From Parvibaculum sedimenti (GTDB lineage Bacteria > Pseudomonadota > Alphaproteobacteria > Parvibaculales > Parvibaculaceae), in NCBI RefSeq assembly GCF_009184905.1, contig NZ_WESC01000003.1:1-64000 (forward strand): a stretch of 64,000 bases of DNA, written 5' to 3'. A program made the position numbers and the translations under genes. This document shows, one piece after another, positions 25,728 to 31,586 of this stretch (position 1 is the stretch's first letter; each line of letters starts with the position of its first letter). The notes under the pieces are model-generated. The model searched no databases and had not been told where the DNA came from. It saw only the letters and a program-made list of their open reading frames with translations.

Positions 25728-25916
25728 GTGAACGCCCAGCCACCGATCTCAACCCCCTGCATCAATGTCTGCGCGATCGACGCCAGAAGCGGACTTTGCA
25801 CCGGCTGCGCCCGCTCGCTGGAGGAGATCGCCCGCTGGTCGCGCCTGACCGAAAGAGAGCGGCGCGCCGTCATGGAAACCCTGCCCGCCCGCCTCGCCGC
25901 GATGCTGGCCAAATGA
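25728..25916 (+). CDS. DUF1289 family protein (Cys-rich)
   Basis: A small protein of about 62 residues when read from GTG 25728 (an in-frame ATG at 25662 would add 22 residues of unlikely sequence). It has the DUF1289 pattern PCINVCAIDARSGLCTGCAR with four cysteines, followed by LEEIARWSRLTERERRAVM. The cysteines could bind a metal or Fe-S cluster. DUF1289 proteins are widespread in proteobacteria and have no established function known to me. The stop overlaps the start of the POT transporter as ATGA, so the two are translated together. Confidence 0.85.
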   Translation: MNAQPPISTPCINVCAIDARSGLCTGCARSLEEIARWSRLTERERRAVMETLPARLAAMLAK

Positions 25917-27265
25917 CAGCGCGGAGCCCCGACCTCTTCGGCCAGCCAAGGGGCCTCGCCTTCCTCTTCGGCACGGAGATGTGGGAGCGCTTCTCCTATT
26001 ACGGTATGCGCGCCCTGCTGACCCTCTATATGGTCAAATATCTGCTGCTGCCGGAAAACCGCGACCGCGTGCTCGGCCTCGACGCGCTGCGCGGCATCTT
26101 CGAGAGCGTCTTCGGCCCGCTCGACGCGCAGCCCTTCGCCTCGCAGATCTACGGCTCCTATACGGCGCTCGTCTATCTCACGCCCGTTCTCGGCGGATAC
26201 ATCGCCGACCGCTGGCTCGGCCATCGCCGCACGGTCATCATCGGCGCGCTGCTGATGGCGCTCGGCCATTTCATGATGGCCGTCGAGCATCTGTTTCTCT
26301 TCGCGCTGCTGGCGCTCATTCTCGGCAATGGCGCGTTCAAGCCCAATATTTCCAGCCAGGTCGGCACGCTTTACGCCCCCGGCGACGCACGGCGCGACCG
26401 CGCCTATTCGATCTTCTATGTCGGCATTAATCTCGGCGCCTTCCTCGCACCGCTTGTCTGCGGAACTCTGGGTGAGCGCATCGGCTGGCATTACGGCTTC
26501 GCCGCGGCGGGCATCGGCATGTTGATCGCCATCGCGATCTACCATTTCGGTGCGCCGGACCTCCCTGCCGAGATGCCGCGCGCGGCAACGGCGGCGCCCC
26601 GGGCGCCGCTCACCCGCGACGACTGGCGCTCCATCGGGTCGCTGGGGCTTCTCTGCGTTTTCGTCGCCTTCTTCTGGGCGACCTATGAACAGCAGGGAAA
26701 CACCATCGCTCTGTGGGCGGACGGATATACCGACCGCGCCGTCAACCTTCTCGTCTGGCGGGGTGAAGTGCCGACGACATGGTTCCAGTCGTTGAACCCT
26801 TTCATGATCTTCGCCTTCACGCCCTTCGTCGTCGCGCTCTGGGCGCGGCAGTCGCGGCGCGGCACGGAGCCGTCGACCCTCGTCAAGATGTCGCTCGGCT
26901 GCCTCGGCGTCGCGCTCGGCAATCTCATCATGGTCGCCGCCGCCTATGAAGCAGGCGCGACAGGCAAGGCCAGCCCCTTCTGGCTCTTCGCCTATTTCGC
27001 CATCGTCACCATGGGCGAACTCTATCTCTCGCCGACAGGTCTCTCCTTCGTCTCGAAGATCGCCCCTGCCTCGCTTCTCTCGATGCTGATGGGGGTCTGG
27101 TTGCTGACCAACTTCGCAGGTAACTTCCTCGCCGGCTGGCTCGGCAGCTTCTGGAGCGGGATGGACAAGGGCGCGTTTTTCCTGATGATCGCAGGAATCG
27201 CGGGCGCGGCGAGCGTGGCGATCTTTGTTTTTGATCGTGTATTAAGGCCTCGCTCCTTGCTTTAA
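25913..27265 (+). CDS. POT/PTR family proton-dependent oligopeptide transporter
   Basis: A 450-residue inner-membrane transporter with 12 or more hydrophobic segments. The POT proton-coupling motif ExxER is seen in GTEMWERFSYYGMRALL at the N-terminus, and the PTR2 signature region in GGYIADRWLGHRRTVIIG and GNGAFKPNISSQVG. It imports di- or tripeptides with protons. The start overlaps the DUF1289 stop (ATGA). It is the last typical-composition gene before the AT-rich accessory island. Confidence 0.9.
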   Translation: MTARSPDLFGQPRGLAFLFGTEMWERFSYYGMRALLTLYMVKYLLLPENRDRVLGLDALRGIFESVFGPLDAQPFASQIYGSYTALVYLTPVLGGYIADRWLGHRRTVIIGALLMALGHFMMAVEHLFLFALLALILGNGAFKPNISSQVGTLYAPGDARRDRAYSIFYVGINLGAFLAPLVCGTLGERIGWHYGFAAAGIGMLIAIAIYHFGAPDLPAEMPRAATAAPRAPLTRDDWRSIGSLGLLCVFVAFFWATYEQQGNTIALWADGYTDRAVNLLVWRGEVPTTWFQSLNPFMIFAFTPFVVALWARQSRRGTEPSTLVKMSLGCLGVALGNLIMVAAAYEAGATGKASPFWLFAYFAIVTMGELYLSPTGLSFVSKIAPASLLSMLMGVWLLTNFAGNFLAGWLGSFWSGMDKGAFFLMIAGIAGAASVAIFVFDRVLRPRSLL

Positions 27266-27361
27266 AGAGCTCGTTGAACAGACATCTACACCGACCAAGG
27301 TAATATTATATCTCACCGAGGGCGTCGCAGTCACTGAAGTTCAGATGCAAGATTCGAAAAG

Positions 27362-27390
27362 TTGGGTTAGAATTTATCGTACGATTTAAT
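27362..27390 (+). promoter_or_regulatory. Candidate sigma-70-type promoter of the accessory island
   Basis: TTGGGT (27362-27367), a 17-nt spacer and TTTAAT (27385-27390), 23 bp before the ATG at 27414. The spacing and AT-rich setting fit a housekeeping promoter; no experimental or comparative support. Confidence 0.4.
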
Positions 27391-27413
27391 TCATATGAAC
27401 GGTCCGGCTCCCA

Positions 27414-28244
27414 ATGGCCAAAAAACAATCCTCATCGAATCGATTACCTAATGCTCCGTTGGCAGAAGTTGTGTTCGAGCTACGATGGGCGCTACAGAGT
27501 GACTCCACCACGCCTCTCACATTACAAAATGATCCAGGCTTAATACCGCTACTCGATGCGTTTACAAAAAACGCAAAGAAACTCGGTTTCGCATCATCTA
27601 AACAGCTAGTTTCCCCATTACAGACCGCCCCCTATGGAGTAGTGCGCCGCTATTATAAAGACGACAGCAAACCGTTCCCCTTGCTGCAGATCGGTCCCGG
27701 CATATTTGCCTGCAACGATGCGTCACAATACGAGTGGACTTCTTATAAGACCCTTATCACCAAAGGTCTCACGTCGCTATTTTCCTCATATCCGAAGCTC
27801 GGATTTTTTCCACTAGCTCCGATATTTCTAGAGCTTCGCTACGTTGACGTGTTCGACAGGTCTCTCTTCGGAAAAGCTGCCCTTTTCGATTTTCTACAAA
27901 AAGGTACTTCTCTCAAATTAGATCTTCCACCAATGCTCTCGGAGCGTAGCACTTTTGGCGGTGACGCGGATGGTCGCCTTTTATTTCGCAGAGACCTGAA
28001 AGGATGGAAGGACACCATCTTTAGCTTCGATATCGGATCAGCGACGAATAACGGAAATCAGGAACAAATAGTTCGGCTAGAGACAAAAGTCACAACTGGT
28101 CAAAGTGGTATATTGGCGCTGAAAACTCCTGCACCATTTATCAAAAATGTCGAAAAGTGGCTCGACTTCGCCCATGGAATTACGAGTCCATTTTTCAAAC
28201 AACTCATCCTGCCAACGACTATGGCCAAATTCTCAGTGGATTAA
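27414..28244 (+). CDS. TIGR04255 family protein of unknown function
   Basis: A 276-residue protein with the N-terminal LPNAPLAEVVFELRWALQ that marks the sporadically distributed TIGR04255 family. It continues with PYGVVRRYYKDDSKPFPLLQIGPGIFACND, a YEWTSYKTLI segment, a LELRYVDVFD strand, and a C-terminal WLDFAHGITSPFFKQLI helix of the same family. No signal peptide, membrane segment or known catalytic motif is seen. Base composition is far from the neighbours (24 of 60 G/C at 27541-27600 against 40 of 60 at 26881-26940), indicating transfer. It is followed 6 bp later by a second unknown gene and then a third. Function is unknown; a role in mobile-element conflict is conceivable only by context. 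Confidence 0.82.
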   Translation: MAKKQSSSNRLPNAPLAEVVFELRWALQSDSTTPLTLQNDPGLIPLLDAFTKNAKKLGFASSKQLVSPLQTAPYGVVRRYYKDDSKPFPLLQIGPGIFACNDASQYEWTSYKTLITKGLTSLFSSYPKLGFFPLAPIFLELRYVDVFDRSLFGKAALFDFLQKGTSLKLDLPPMLSERSTFGGDADGRLLFRRDLKGWKDTIFSFDIGSATNNGNQEQIVRLETKVTTGQSGILALKTPAPFIKNVEKWLDFAHGITSPFFKQLILPTTMAKFSVD

Positions 28245-28250
28245 TTAGGC

Positions 28251-28811
28251 ATGGATACAACCGACATATCGCCGATTGATTGGGACATCGGCGACGAGAT
28301 CAGTTCGACCAAACATCGGCTTTCGGTGATTCATGCCGAGGGTGCAGCCAAACACCTCCCCAGGCACCCCGATGCGGCGGACGACGATCTAAATCCATCC
28401 ACCGATACGATGCCCCAACCTCTGCTGACAAACTGGGGGCGCCTTGGTCGCGCCAGTATAAGTATCGCGATGTATGAGAGTCTTGTCCGCATCGCGATGT
28501 ATACAGATGGATGGCACGGGCCAGGTTCGTTGGGACTTCGCTCATCATCCCTGAAACGATTTATTGAGTTCTGGTCTCTGGTTCGAAACGACGCCGCCGA
28601 GCCAGAAATTAGCCTCTCCTCGGACGGCTCTCTTCACACGGAATGGTATAAATCGGCCCGCCAGCGGCTTGATCTTCGTTTTGCCGATCAGTCCGTTTTT
28701 TTTGGGTTATTTAGTAACAATACCATTTTAGAAGGCGCCGATAGCGTCGATACGGTAGCTCAAATTTTGCGCTTACATCGCGCTGCCCCCCTACGATGGA
28801 AAGCCAAGTGA
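28251..28811 (+). CDS. Hypothetical protein of the accessory island (GWHG / DGSLHTEW motifs)
   Basis: A 186-residue protein I cannot assign to a named family. The first 60 residues are acidic and look disordered. After that comes a helix (SISIAMYESLVRIAMY), the block YTDGWHGPGSLGLRSSSLKR, a helix, and PEISLSSDGSLHTEWYKSAR then a strand pair (LDLRFADQSVFFGLF). The GWxG and DGSLxxEW blocks look like conserved motifs of a small alpha/beta domain; this is my reading of the sequence, not a search. It lies 6 bp after the TIGR04255 gene and overlaps the third gene, so the three form an operon. AT-rich codon use like its neighbours. Confidence 0.75.
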   Translation: MDTTDISPIDWDIGDEISSTKHRLSVIHAEGAAKHLPRHPDAADDDLNPSTDTMPQPLLTNWGRLGRASISIAMYESLVRIAMYTDGWHGPGSLGLRSSSLKRFIEFWSLVRNDAAEPEISLSSDGSLHTEWYKSARQRLDLRFADQSVFFGLFSNNTILEGADSVDTVAQILRLHRAAPLRWKAK

Positions 28812-29299
28812 ATACACCAACATTCTCGGGCAAAAAACAGCTCGTACGATATATCGACAAAGTACACCGCCTCAAAAACAGAAGGCCTGCAGTCGCAGCA
28901 TTTTTACCGGATCCTCCAAGTGCCGATCCATCAAATGACCACCTTTCGGTTAACTCTCTTGAAATAGAGAAGATTGACGAGATTGCAACTTATCACCGGT
29001 GGAAGTGGCAAAATGAAGAAGGCCAGGTGGCCTTGGCGGTACACAAGGTGCATCAATACAGTGACGCTGCAAAAAAAAGTGGTGTCGAGCTGAGTTACGA
29101 CAAGCATCAAGCTATCTGGTTTTTTTCCGGATCGAAAAAAGAACCGGAAATGGCATACAGACATCGCCCGGTTAAAGCTCACAATAACCCATATGCCTCC
29201 CCCTCCCACTGCGGGGTTGAGTTCTCGCGAGTACTTAAAGAGCACCGCGCATCACAGTTCGCGCGAAGAATGACCACTCAAAAGTTTCACCTCAAGTAA
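28796..29299 (+). CDS. Hypothetical protein of the accessory island, third gene
   Basis: A 167-residue basic protein. It starts at ATG 28796 inside the previous gene, or at GTG 28808 which overlaps that gene's TGA as GTGA; the second is the more usual coupling. Features: an N-terminal basic helix (RYIDKVHRLKNRRP), a DHLSVNSLEIEKIDEIATY block, a histidine-containing central part (VALAVHKVHQYSDAAKKSG) and a C-terminal VKAHNNPYASPSHCGVEF segment with His and Cys. No domain is recognised. It is the last gene of the AT-rich island. It might be a nucleic-acid-binding or effector partner of the two genes before it, but nothing in the sequence proves that. Confidence 0.72.
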   Translation: MESQVNTPTFSGKKQLVRYIDKVHRLKNRRPAVAAFLPDPPSADPSNDHLSVNSLEIEKIDEIATYHRWKWQNEEGQVALAVHKVHQYSDAAKKSGVELSYDKHQAIWFFSGSKKEPEMAYRHRPVKAHNNPYASPSHCGVEFSRVLKEHRASQFARRMTTQKFHLK

Positions 29300-29588
29300 G
29301 TCGCTACCCAGCAGTATGCGCGAACCAATACCTATGGGGCGCTCGGCGAGAAGGCCGTGTTCGCACCTCGTTTCCACAATATATTCAGGTCGAACGCCTA
29401 TCGCGTCCGACAAATGACATACCAGTTTTAACGTTTCTCGCCGTCGGACAAGGTTTTGTCCACTCAAGGCAATTTTGATGGGTGACCTCGATAGGATAGC
29501 ATCTCACGTAGCGAGAAAGTTTCTTTGTCCCACCTGTAAATAATGGCGAGCGCGGCAAATGAATGCTGCGCCCGTTTGTTCTTCCGCA
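29300..29588. other. Right flank of the accessory island, no gene recognised
   Basis: This 289-bp stretch has intermediate composition. A 71-codon minus-strand frame (29252-29467) reads smoothly but overlaps the third island gene and matches no family I know. It could be a gene remnant. No tRNA, att-like direct repeat or transposase was seen, so how the island was acquired is not evident. Confidence 0.4.
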
Positions 29589-30152
29589 TCACTCCGCCCG
29601 CTTGCGGCCGGTGAACATGGCTCGCACCAGGTTTTCCTTGTGCTCGGCGCTGGCGACGAAGACACCGGCGATGTGGAGGCCGACGAGGATCAGCGCGAGG
29701 TTGGCGAGTGCTTCATGCACTTCCTCGACCCATTCGATGCCCCAGAAGGCATCGGTCGTCATCATGATACCGGTGCCGCAAAGCGCGGCGAGCATGGCGA
29801 GAAGCGCCATCACCATCGCGCCGCCTGCCGGGTTGTGGCCGATGTAACGCTTCGCGCGGAACAGGACCGTATCGAAGAGATAACGGATCACCGTCGAGGG
29901 CCGGTAGATGAAGTCGGAGAAGCGCGCATGCGTGCTGCCGACAAGGCCCCAGACAAGGCGGATGCCGACAAGTCCGGCGATCGTGTAGCCCGCGATCTCG
30001 TGAACGCTCTGAAGCTCGTCACCCGTGGCCCAGGCGGTCGCGAAAGCGATCACCAGCGACCAGTGGAAGATGCGCACCAGCGGGTCCCAGACGCGGACGG
30101 TGGCCGGCCGCATTTCGCGGCCGGCATCCAAAGTCTCGAGCGCGGGAGACAT
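29589..30152 (-). CDS. Cytochrome b561 / Ni-Fe-hydrogenase-type b cytochrome
   Basis: A 187-residue integral membrane b-type cytochrome with four hydrophobic segments. Candidate haem ligands are the His residues in RIFHWSLVI (segment 1), LQSVHEIAGYTIAG (segment 2) and EVHEALANLALILVGLHIAG (segment 4). Relatives carry electrons between quinones and periplasmic partners. The start overlaps by one base the stop of the periplasmic PepSY gene, so both are in one minus-strand operon, divergent from the PepSY/two-component genes. The pairing suggests a redox step sensed and adjusted by that regulatory system. Confidence 0.88.
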   Translation of the reverse strand: MSPALETLDAGREMRPATVRVWDPLVRIFHWSLVIAFATAWATGDELQSVHEIAGYTIAGLVGIRLVWGLVGSTHARFSDFIYRPSTVIRYLFDTVLFRAKRYIGHNPAGGAMVMALLAMLAALCGTGIMMTTDAFWGIEWVEEVHEALANLALILVGLHIAGVFVASAEHKENLVRAMFTGRKRAE

Positions 30153-30439
30153 TAGTCGTCTTCCTTGCCGTTGACGCGCTCGCCGGTGACCGGGTTGAAG
30201 TAGAGTTCGGCCTTGGCGCCGTTCTTGTCGACCACATAGAGCTCGTAGCAGCCGTCTTCGGCCTTCACGCGGCGGACCTCATAGCCAAGCGCGGTGCCCT
30301 TCGCCTTGATGGCGTCTTCGCTGAGCCACTGTTCGCGCGGCGCATTGCCACAGCTCGCTTTGCCCTCTTCCTCGGCGAAGGCGGGAACAGCCGCGCCCAT
30401 GGCGAGGACGACGGCGGACAATTGAAGCATCTTACGCAT
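30152..30439 (-). CDS. Periplasmic PepSY domain protein
   Basis: A 95-residue exported protein: signal peptide MRKMLQLSAVVLAMGAAVPAFA then a single PepSY domain with WLSEDAIKAKGTALGYEVRRV and YELYVVDKNGAKAELYFNPV. The pair of Cys residues (ASCGNAP and DGCYELY) could form a disulphide. PepSY domains often inhibit or bind partners and accompany cytochromes and two-component systems. It leads the operon with the b561 cytochrome. It faces another PepSY gene across a 128-bp divergent promoter region (30440-30567). Confidence 0.87.
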   Translation of the reverse strand: MRKMLQLSAVVLAMGAAVPAFAEEEGKASCGNAPREQWLSEDAIKAKGTALGYEVRRVKAEDGCYELYVVDKNGAKAELYFNPVTGERVNGKEDD

Positions 30440-30567
30440 TGTGAAACTCTCCTGTTGAACGGGATCGCTCCGATCCCCGACGAATGCGACCCTAGCGGAG
30501 TGGCACTGACAGAGAGCTGAGTGCCCCTGTCAGCGAATTGTCAGCTGCCGGATGCGATCCTGACGCA

Positions 30568-30921
30568 ATGACCGAACGGCGAATGAAATGGCGAGAACTC
30601 GTGGCGGCGCTTGCGTTGGCAGCACCGCTCTGCGCCCTTGTGCCGCAGGCGATGGCCGGGGAATCGACCGCCCGCGAAAACATTGAGGAACACGACCATG
30701 ATCGCGCCCGCCACGCGCGCGAACGCGGCGAGATCAAGTCGCTCGAAGAAATCATGCCGATGGTCTCGCGCGAGGCGCCGGGCGAAGTGTCCCACATCGA
30801 ACTCGAACGCGATGACGGTCTCTGGGTCTACGAATTCCGGATCATCGACGGCAAAGGCCATCTTGAGGAAATCAAGGTCGATGCCGCGACAGGCCGCATC
30901 ATCGAGCGGGAGAGCGAGTGA
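30568..30921 (+). CDS. Exported PepSY domain protein
   Basis: A 117-residue protein from ATG 30568 (ATG 30583 is possible): signal peptide-like WRELVAALALAAPLCALVPQAMA, a His/Arg-rich linker (EEHDHDRARHARERGE) and a PepSY domain (IKSLEEIMPMV, GEVSHIELERDDGLWVYEF, IIDGKGHLEEIKVDAATG). The His-rich linker could bind metal; that is inference. The stop overlaps the response-regulator start as TGATG, so the three genes PepSY-regulator-kinase are translated together. It is probably a periplasmic modulator of the kinase. Confidence 0.83.
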   Translation: MTERRMKWRELVAALALAAPLCALVPQAMAGESTARENIEEHDHDRARHARERGEIKSLEEIMPMVSREAPGEVSHIELERDDGLWVYEFRIIDGKGHLEEIKVDAATGRIIERESE

Positions 30922-31586
30922 TGCGCGTTCTTCTGGTCGAGGATGAGGACAGGATCGCCGCCGATGTCGCCACGGCGCTGACGGCGGCGGGCTTCACCGT
31001 CGAGCGCGAGGCTGATGGCGAGGAGGCCTGGTTTCGTGGCGATACGGAAGAATTCGACGCGGTGGTGCTCGACCTCGGACTGCCCGGCATGGACGGGCTT
31101 GCCGTGCTGAAACGCTGGCGCGATGCGGGGCGGCGCTTTCCCGTTCTCGTGCTCACTGCGCGCGGGCGCTGGGCCGAGCGCGTGGAGGGCATCGACGCGG
31201 GCGCCGACGACTATCTGCCCAAGCCCTTCCAGATGGAGGAGCTGATCGCGCGGTTGCGGGCGCTGATCCGCCGCGCTGCCGGACAGGCCTCCTCCATCCT
31301 CGTCAACGGCACGGTCCGTCTCGACACGCGGCGCATGGAAGTCACCGTGAATGGCGTGCCGGTGAACCTTTCGCCGCAGGAATATCGCCTCCTCTCCTAT
31401 CTCATGCATCATGCCGGCCGCGTCGTATCGCAACTCGAACTGACGGAGCATCTCTACGCGCAGGATTTCGAGCGCGAGTCGAACGCCATCGAAGTCATGG
31501 TGGGCCGGGTGCGGCGGAAGCTTGGCGTCGATCTGATCGAGACCCGGCGCGGCTTCGGCTACATGGTTGCGGAGGCCGCACCATGA
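30921..31586 (+). CDS. OmpR/PhoP-type response regulator
   Basis: A 221-residue response regulator. The receiver domain has the acidic pair in VEDEDR, phospho-acceptor Asp about 51 in VVLDLGLPGMDG, and Lys in LPKPF. The C-terminal winged helix (about residues 125-218) shows LSPQEYRLLSYLMHHAGRVV and the recognition helix region SNAIEVMVGRVRRKL with RRGFGYM. ATG 30921 overlaps the PepSY stop; GTG 30918 is also in frame. The kinase start overlaps its stop (ATGA). Likely targets are the divergent PepSY/cytochrome b561 promoter and its own. Confidence 0.93.
   Translation: MRVLLVEDEDRIAADVATALTAAGFTVEREADGEEAWFRGDTEEFDAVVLDLGLPGMDGLAVLKRWRDAGRRFPVLVLTARGRWAERVEGIDAGADDYLPKPFQMEELIARLRALIRRAAGQASSILVNGTVRLDTRRMEVTVNGVPVNLSPQEYRLLSYLMHHAGRVVSQLELTEHLYAQDFERESNAIEVMVGRVRRKLGVDLIETRRGFGYMVAEAAP

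Follow-up and report, generated by a model that had tools for sequence, protein, structure and literature searches.

PDC-M32, a phage defence candidate already predicted by PADLOC, consists of two adjacent genes, PDC-M32A and PDC-M32B, and PADLOC matches to both are among the entries tabulated for a Sinorhizobium meliloti prophage (PMC12429752). Type II toxin-antitoxin systems such as PemK/MazF consist of small overlapping genes. Fold-level comparison leads further to the KptA/Tpt1 RNA 2'-phosphotransferases and the ADP-ribosyltransferase (ART) superfamily; DarTG and RES-Xre have ART-type toxins. Here, we compare with these systems a three-gene operon, A-B-C, headed by a gene of the TIGR04255 family and located in a 64,000-nucleotide stretch of Parvibaculum sedimenti DNA (contig NZ_WESC01000003.1, positions 1 to 64,000; hereafter, the window). 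A-B-C is probably a toxin-based defence module, and with moderate confidence we read it as a tripartite conflict module of toxin-antitoxin-like kind that was acquired horizontally and most likely acts against phages by abortive infection; in it, C would be the effector, B would restrain or couple it, and A would act as the sensor.

Both PDC-M32 and type II toxin-antitoxin systems share part of this arrangement. The family of B is probably homologous to PDC-M32A in the C-terminal domain of the latter, and the family of C to PDC-M32B, with the genes adjacent and in the same order as B-C; however, PDC-M32A carries its B-like domain fused to a different N-terminal part (~255 aa), and there is no separate A gene. 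With type II toxin-antitoxin systems, A-B-C has small overlapping genes in common, and PemK is itself the third gene of two A-headed operons, but A-B-C adds a larger leading protein, behind which second protein and effector are exchangeable. The literature covered yielded neither a TIGR04255-led modular system nor an ART-like reading of C: main-text searches, with preprints and most subscription journals outside their coverage, returned no paper naming TIGR04255 and nothing on embedded candidates or tripartite modular systems. If our reading is true, what is now one family name would become a modular immune system with exchangeable effectors, the predicted candidate PDC-M32 would be explained as a relative, and an unusual ART-like effector with a His motif would be added. 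The features of the locus are as follows.

27414-28244, + strand: gene A (TIGR04255 family), 276 aa; first gene common to the operons, proposed as sensor/regulator
28251-28811, + strand: gene B, with a GW(D/H)G...DG.i..eW domain, 186 aa; proposed neutraliser/adaptor of C
28488-28712, + strand: GW domain of B (residues 80-154), the portion aligning to PDC-M32A 264-340
28796-29299, + strand: gene C, 167 aa; predicted ART-like (KptA/Tpt1-like) fold, proposed effector
28847-28849, + strand: residue R18 of C, in the first predicted strand (15-20); R in 22/24 C proteins
28946-28951, + strand: residues S51-V52 of C, LSV motif, in predicted strand 50-54; S in 24/24, V in 22/24
29207-29209, + strand: residue H138 of C, where predicted strand 138-141 begins; H in 24/24 C proteins
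27266-29558, no strand: AT-rich island containing A-B-C, with a POT-type transporter gene on one side and a cytochrome b561-type gene on the other (neighbours named by eye)

A-B-C recurs as an operon

A preliminary description of the window had placed the first gene in TIGR04255, and this assignment holds: residues 10-273 of A align to positions 1-251 of the 252-position NCBIfam profile (2e-14, 54 bits, cut-off 30), and the structure model of A is confident (pLDDT 89.5, pTM 0.89). No Pfam or NCBIfam family is matched above its cut-off by B or C, and the sole Pfam match of C at E <= 10 is PqqF_C_3 (0.036, below its cut-off). The three genes are tightly linked + strand open reading frames (ORFs), as had been described, with a 6-bp gap between A and B and a 16-bp overlap between B and C.

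The same three genes occur together in unrelated genomes, in agreement with the conserved coupling proposed earlier. A profile-guided scan collected 47 loci, 36 from genomes and 11 viral (L numbers are our locus labels); Proteobacteria, Bacteroidetes, Marinimicrobia and Microbacterium appear among the record titles. A script detected two or more additional, closely spaced ORFs downstream of A in 40/47 of these loci. These loci are partly redundant (L073 equals L003; L094 equals L064, as does L111; L104 equals L065; L078 equals L108; further redundancy involves L109 and L110 and the near-identical L112, L113 and L115). In L088, the script picked the wrong ORF as A, the correct one being identified on reading; L072, L085, L107 and L116 break off close to a contig end, at A or B or shortly behind, and L105 yielded no A ORF. 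Two loci missed by the script's spacing/overlap rule, L074 and L104, both show C on reading, L074 also B.

TIGR04255 is a sporadic yet not rare family, with 33 matches in 30 genomes of an even sample of 398 from the phylum. A search with B in 385 class genomes matched six at E <= 0.01, namely the window's own, one clear relative (2.6e-13; L003, with identical A-B-C order) and four weak ones (8.4e-4 to 0.0077). Against plasmids, tblastn of A returned one record, a Pantoea plasmid prophage in which three consecutive genes are flanked by lysis genes and a terminase. Searches in phage records and E. coli genomes found nothing.

Among 41 genomes (24 from the same genus and 16 from the same class, plus the window's own), A of the window matched its own gene only. 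This search sees close relatives only, since it failed to pick up a second, divergent TIGR04255 gene that the window's genome carries on contig C39 (L056), which was found with the family profile and has its own B and C. That second operon (G000:C39, ~27991-29615; L056:5096-6795, - strand) adjoins an integrase-like reading frame, so named by eye. The left neighbour of A-B-C is matched in 8/27 genus genomes, the window's own included, at E <= 1e-60, and at the five loci read (L141-L145) up to 1.5 kb behind this gene differs and contains no A-B-C. By this comparison of flanks, A-B-C looks like an accessory insertion.

B and C form a cassette probably related to PDC-M32

The PDC-M32A model PDLC04575 is matched by 14/23 B proteins of the window-like type (type I, below) at E <= 0.1 (best 3e-9), and the PDC-M32B model PDLC04579 by 3/24 C proteins at the same threshold (best 4.4e-4). 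For the window itself, B alone matches PDC-M32A at E 0.021, aligning to profile positions 264-340 of 375 only; the full PDC-M32A architecture with its N-terminal part is absent from this 186-residue protein, and C does not match the PDC-M32B model. In profile comparisons, the B family and the PDC-M32A C-terminus reach a probability of 94.1, and the C family and PDC-M32B-like proteins 92.7; seven off-target pairs scored at most 4.2. The window subclade of C alone reaches 14.3 with PDC-M32B, and the N-terminal part of PDC-M32A reaches a non-significant 4.2 with the A profile.

The PDC-M32A model is matched in 13/200 phylum genomes at E <= 0.001, five times over most of the model length. Eight of 11 PDC-M32A neighbourhoods have a C match alongside (L133 at E 0.0092), and L132, L137 and L138 have none beside PDC-M32A, L137 containing a C-like gene by eye. 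In L129, the PDC-M32 pair sits between HsdM and HsdS genes; PADLOC identifies its neighbours as a type I methyltransferase, a specificity subunit and PDC-S35. By eye, the neighbourhoods of L131 and L133 are similar, and that of L132 is not. B-like domains with other front parts or standing alone are found in L134, L135, L137 and L139. In L134 and L135, C directly follows B-like GW domains without TIGR04255, the domain of L135 coming after TPR-like repeats (by eye).

Searching 398 genomes with C gave 12 matches, distributed over 11 genomes. Nine of them follow TIGR04255, and the other three belong to PDC-M32-type loci; all 12 are paired with B, and no orphan C was found in this set. Three of the 12 are training sequences, and the search missed the C genes of L039, L048, L051 and L053 that profiles found.

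C has a predicted ADP-ribosyltransferase-like fold

Alignments were made of 23 B and 24 C proteins. B of the window together with B of L071 matches the other type I B proteins with a profile probability of 96.3, and the same comparison for C gives only 35.8. Because of this latter value, the family link of the window's C rests on gene position, the R/LSV/H motif and a four-member subclade no less than on the profile.

C is predicted to adopt an ART-like (KptA/Tpt1-like) fold. The closest structural rows are RNA 2'-phosphotransferases, with an alignment that begins at about KptA residue 85, and C lacks a counterpart of the KptA N-terminal part as well as family-level sequence similarity to KptA/Tpt1. 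Of the conserved residues, R and S lie within predicted strands and H opens one; these strands would be the ones that carry the ART motifs. The third, invariant residue is His where the R-S-E class has a catalytic Glu, and no Glu occurs among the invariant or nearly invariant columns of C.

The sequence blocks pointed out earlier, GWHG and DGSLHTEW in B and DHLSVN in C, are all present. For the His/Cys-containing tail of C, an SHC block is found in which the His is conserved, whereas the Cys is variable (SHS in L074). The preliminary description had seen no toxin motif in the sequence, to which the predicted fold of C now adds a candidate effector activity.

Partners are exchanged behind A

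We examined the neighbourhoods of 32 phylum-sample TIGR04255 matches besides the window, using B and C profiles built from the window and the scan loci. These profiles match ORFs directly behind A in 12/32 neighbourhoods (C only in L048) and nothing elsewhere in the 32 at E <= 0.01; as L064 and L065 duplicate training loci, independent matches number 10/30. Five other neighbourhoods are matched by a profile for type III C, the QGD/CD family. By reading, the 33 operons comprise 15 of type I (L058 and L059 so labelled by eye only), six of type II with a helix-turn-helix (HTH)-like B, five of type III, two of HEPN-like type IV, two of cysteine-hydrolase-like type V, one with PemK, and two without type. 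L044 and, in the other set of loci, L095 have PemK as third gene, above the Pfam cut-off. The HEPN-like, hydrolase-like and aspartyl-protease-like labels were given by eye, the last with a sub-threshold Pfam match only.

In a quick maximum-likelihood tree of 66 A proteins, starred branches force at least four changes for type I and at least four for type III, although these stars are less trustworthy for long rows, of which there are five. The types are still clustered on the tree, with 10 changes vs a shuffled mean of 27.0. Both PemK operons nest among type III, and A of the window groups with L072-L075 (support 100).

We entertain, with confidence that falls somewhat short of even, a broader reading in which TIGR04255 would mark a large, previously undescribed tripartite immune class, with a beta-saddle sensor-like leader, a neutraliser and effector swapped as a cassette, and the same B-C cassette placed in type I restriction-modification (R-M) loci as PDC-M32. 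Its effectors might then include, a proposal we make with the same reserve, R-S-H ART-like, PemK RNase, HEPN-like and cysteine- or aspartyl-protease-like proteins and a new QGD/CD cysteine family.

The third genes vary as follows. The type III family, with conserved QG and CD motifs, was seen in L080, L081, L086, L087, L091, L097, L099, L101 and L109 and in a second set consisting of L043, L046, L054, L057 and L060; the two sets match with a profile probability of 98.9. In L079:6384-7313, L084:6353-7219, L040 and L041, the third gene combines an early part containing His with a G(F/L)TCA motif; these genes are cysteine-hydrolase-like by eye, with no Pfam match in L084 and L041, the two scanned. 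Small HEPN-like third genes, again by eye, occur in L062 (1853-2230, reverse complement) and L068:1575-1946, and that of a Desulfocapsa metagenome-assembled genome (L083:1878-2345) resembles a retropepsin-type aspartyl protease, with a DTGA motif (Pfam 0.14). In L053:3367-3790, C is broken by a frameshift with A and B open, such that the presumed effector is lost and its partner kept.

Relatives lie in defence and phage neighbourhoods

Relatives of A-B-C sit in defence islands or prophages at several loci, the defence islands being a context that the preliminary description had suggested looking for. Direct neighbours of A-headed operons, at loci picked by eye, are BrxHI (L081), a type I methyltransferase (L093), PDC-S49 (L082) and an HmaB/DUF1156-like methyltransferase (L044). 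A terminase-like gene is directly downstream in L078/L108, and integrase-like genes adjoin L117 and L118 (by eye). A PADLOC survey of 103 flanking proteins from 31/32 phylum-sampled loci gave, among the best 25 of 155 families, HEC-01A/B, a retron-type reverse transcriptase, PDC-S01 (L039), PDC-S13, a type I specificity subunit, viperin and AbiEi, each of these families being matched by a single protein; most of the matches have no traceable locus, and the defence-neighbour counts are without background control. At the window's own site, neither defence-island nor prophage neighbours were seen.

A radical-SAM protein resembling prokaryotic viperins lies near a type II operon (L045:10850-11827); pVip is among the PADLOC matches, and its assignment to this ORF was made by eye.

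Proposed function and alternatives

The earlier suggestion of an accessory conflict or defence module gains support from the recurrence of the operon, its sporadic distribution, its neighbourhoods and the probable homology that links the families of B and C with a PADLOC candidate. In the mechanism that we propose, A would sense an infection cue and release C, which B, via its GW domain, would otherwise restrain or couple to A. B and C are genetically linked in the operon and would form a toxin/neutraliser pair. Once released, C, as an ART-fold protein with an R-S-H motif, might consume NAD+ or modify cellular nucleic acid or protein, and would kill or arrest the cell by NAD+-dependent chemistry.

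The nearest alternative, which we consider unlikely, is a module for defence or stress whose C, rather than being a toxin, would bind or process nucleotides or RNA ends, as in Tpt1-like repair of phage-damaged RNA, with A and B as partners. That the closest structural rows are RNA 2'-phosphotransferases rather than toxins, and that C conserves S and H but no R-S-E triad, would suit such a role, with which the defence context is equally compatible. However, PemK toxins occupy the position of C in two other A-headed operons, and HEPN-like and protease-like proteins (by eye) do so elsewhere, which killing fits better, and the part of KptA before the aligned region has no counterpart in C. We hold it similarly improbable that A-B-C serves to maintain mobile elements as a selfish addiction (toxin-antitoxin) operon and has no specific anti-phage role. 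Tight overlapping genes, a sporadic distribution, prophage and integrase-like neighbours and PemK partners would all be expected of such an operon, but A-B-C has three genes with a conserved first protein, some relatives have BREX, R-M, retron or viperin genes beside or near them, and the B-C pair adjoins type I R-M genes in L129. Finally, ordinary accessory genes with a metabolic role, co-occurring as a housekeeping operon, are a very improbable explanation, for which no positive evidence emerged, and are disfavoured because of the distribution, with A of the window unmatched in the other 40/41 related genomes; the exchange of partners and the defence and phage neighbours of relatives also speak against it.

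Composition of the island

No mobile border of the island was recognisable. The preliminary description had named a promoter candidate for the operon, which could not be recovered: a scan of 27200-29620 limited to a sigma-70-like consensus gave no + strand site upstream of A and three sites in total vs a shuffle mean of 2.6.

Its claim of foreign composition, by contrast, is upheld. The G+C content of 27266-29300 is 48.3%, and 2035-bp stretches away from it average 62.3% (sd 1.6%, minimum 57.6%); the whole island (27266-29558) has 48.6% vs 63.8% (25913-27265) and 64.3% (29560-31586) in its flanks. G+C at third codon positions is 0.46 in A, 0.55 in B and 0.49 in C vs 0.83, 0.82 and 0.73 in three neighbouring genes, and the counts given earlier for two short segments (24/60 and 40/60 G/C) are exact.
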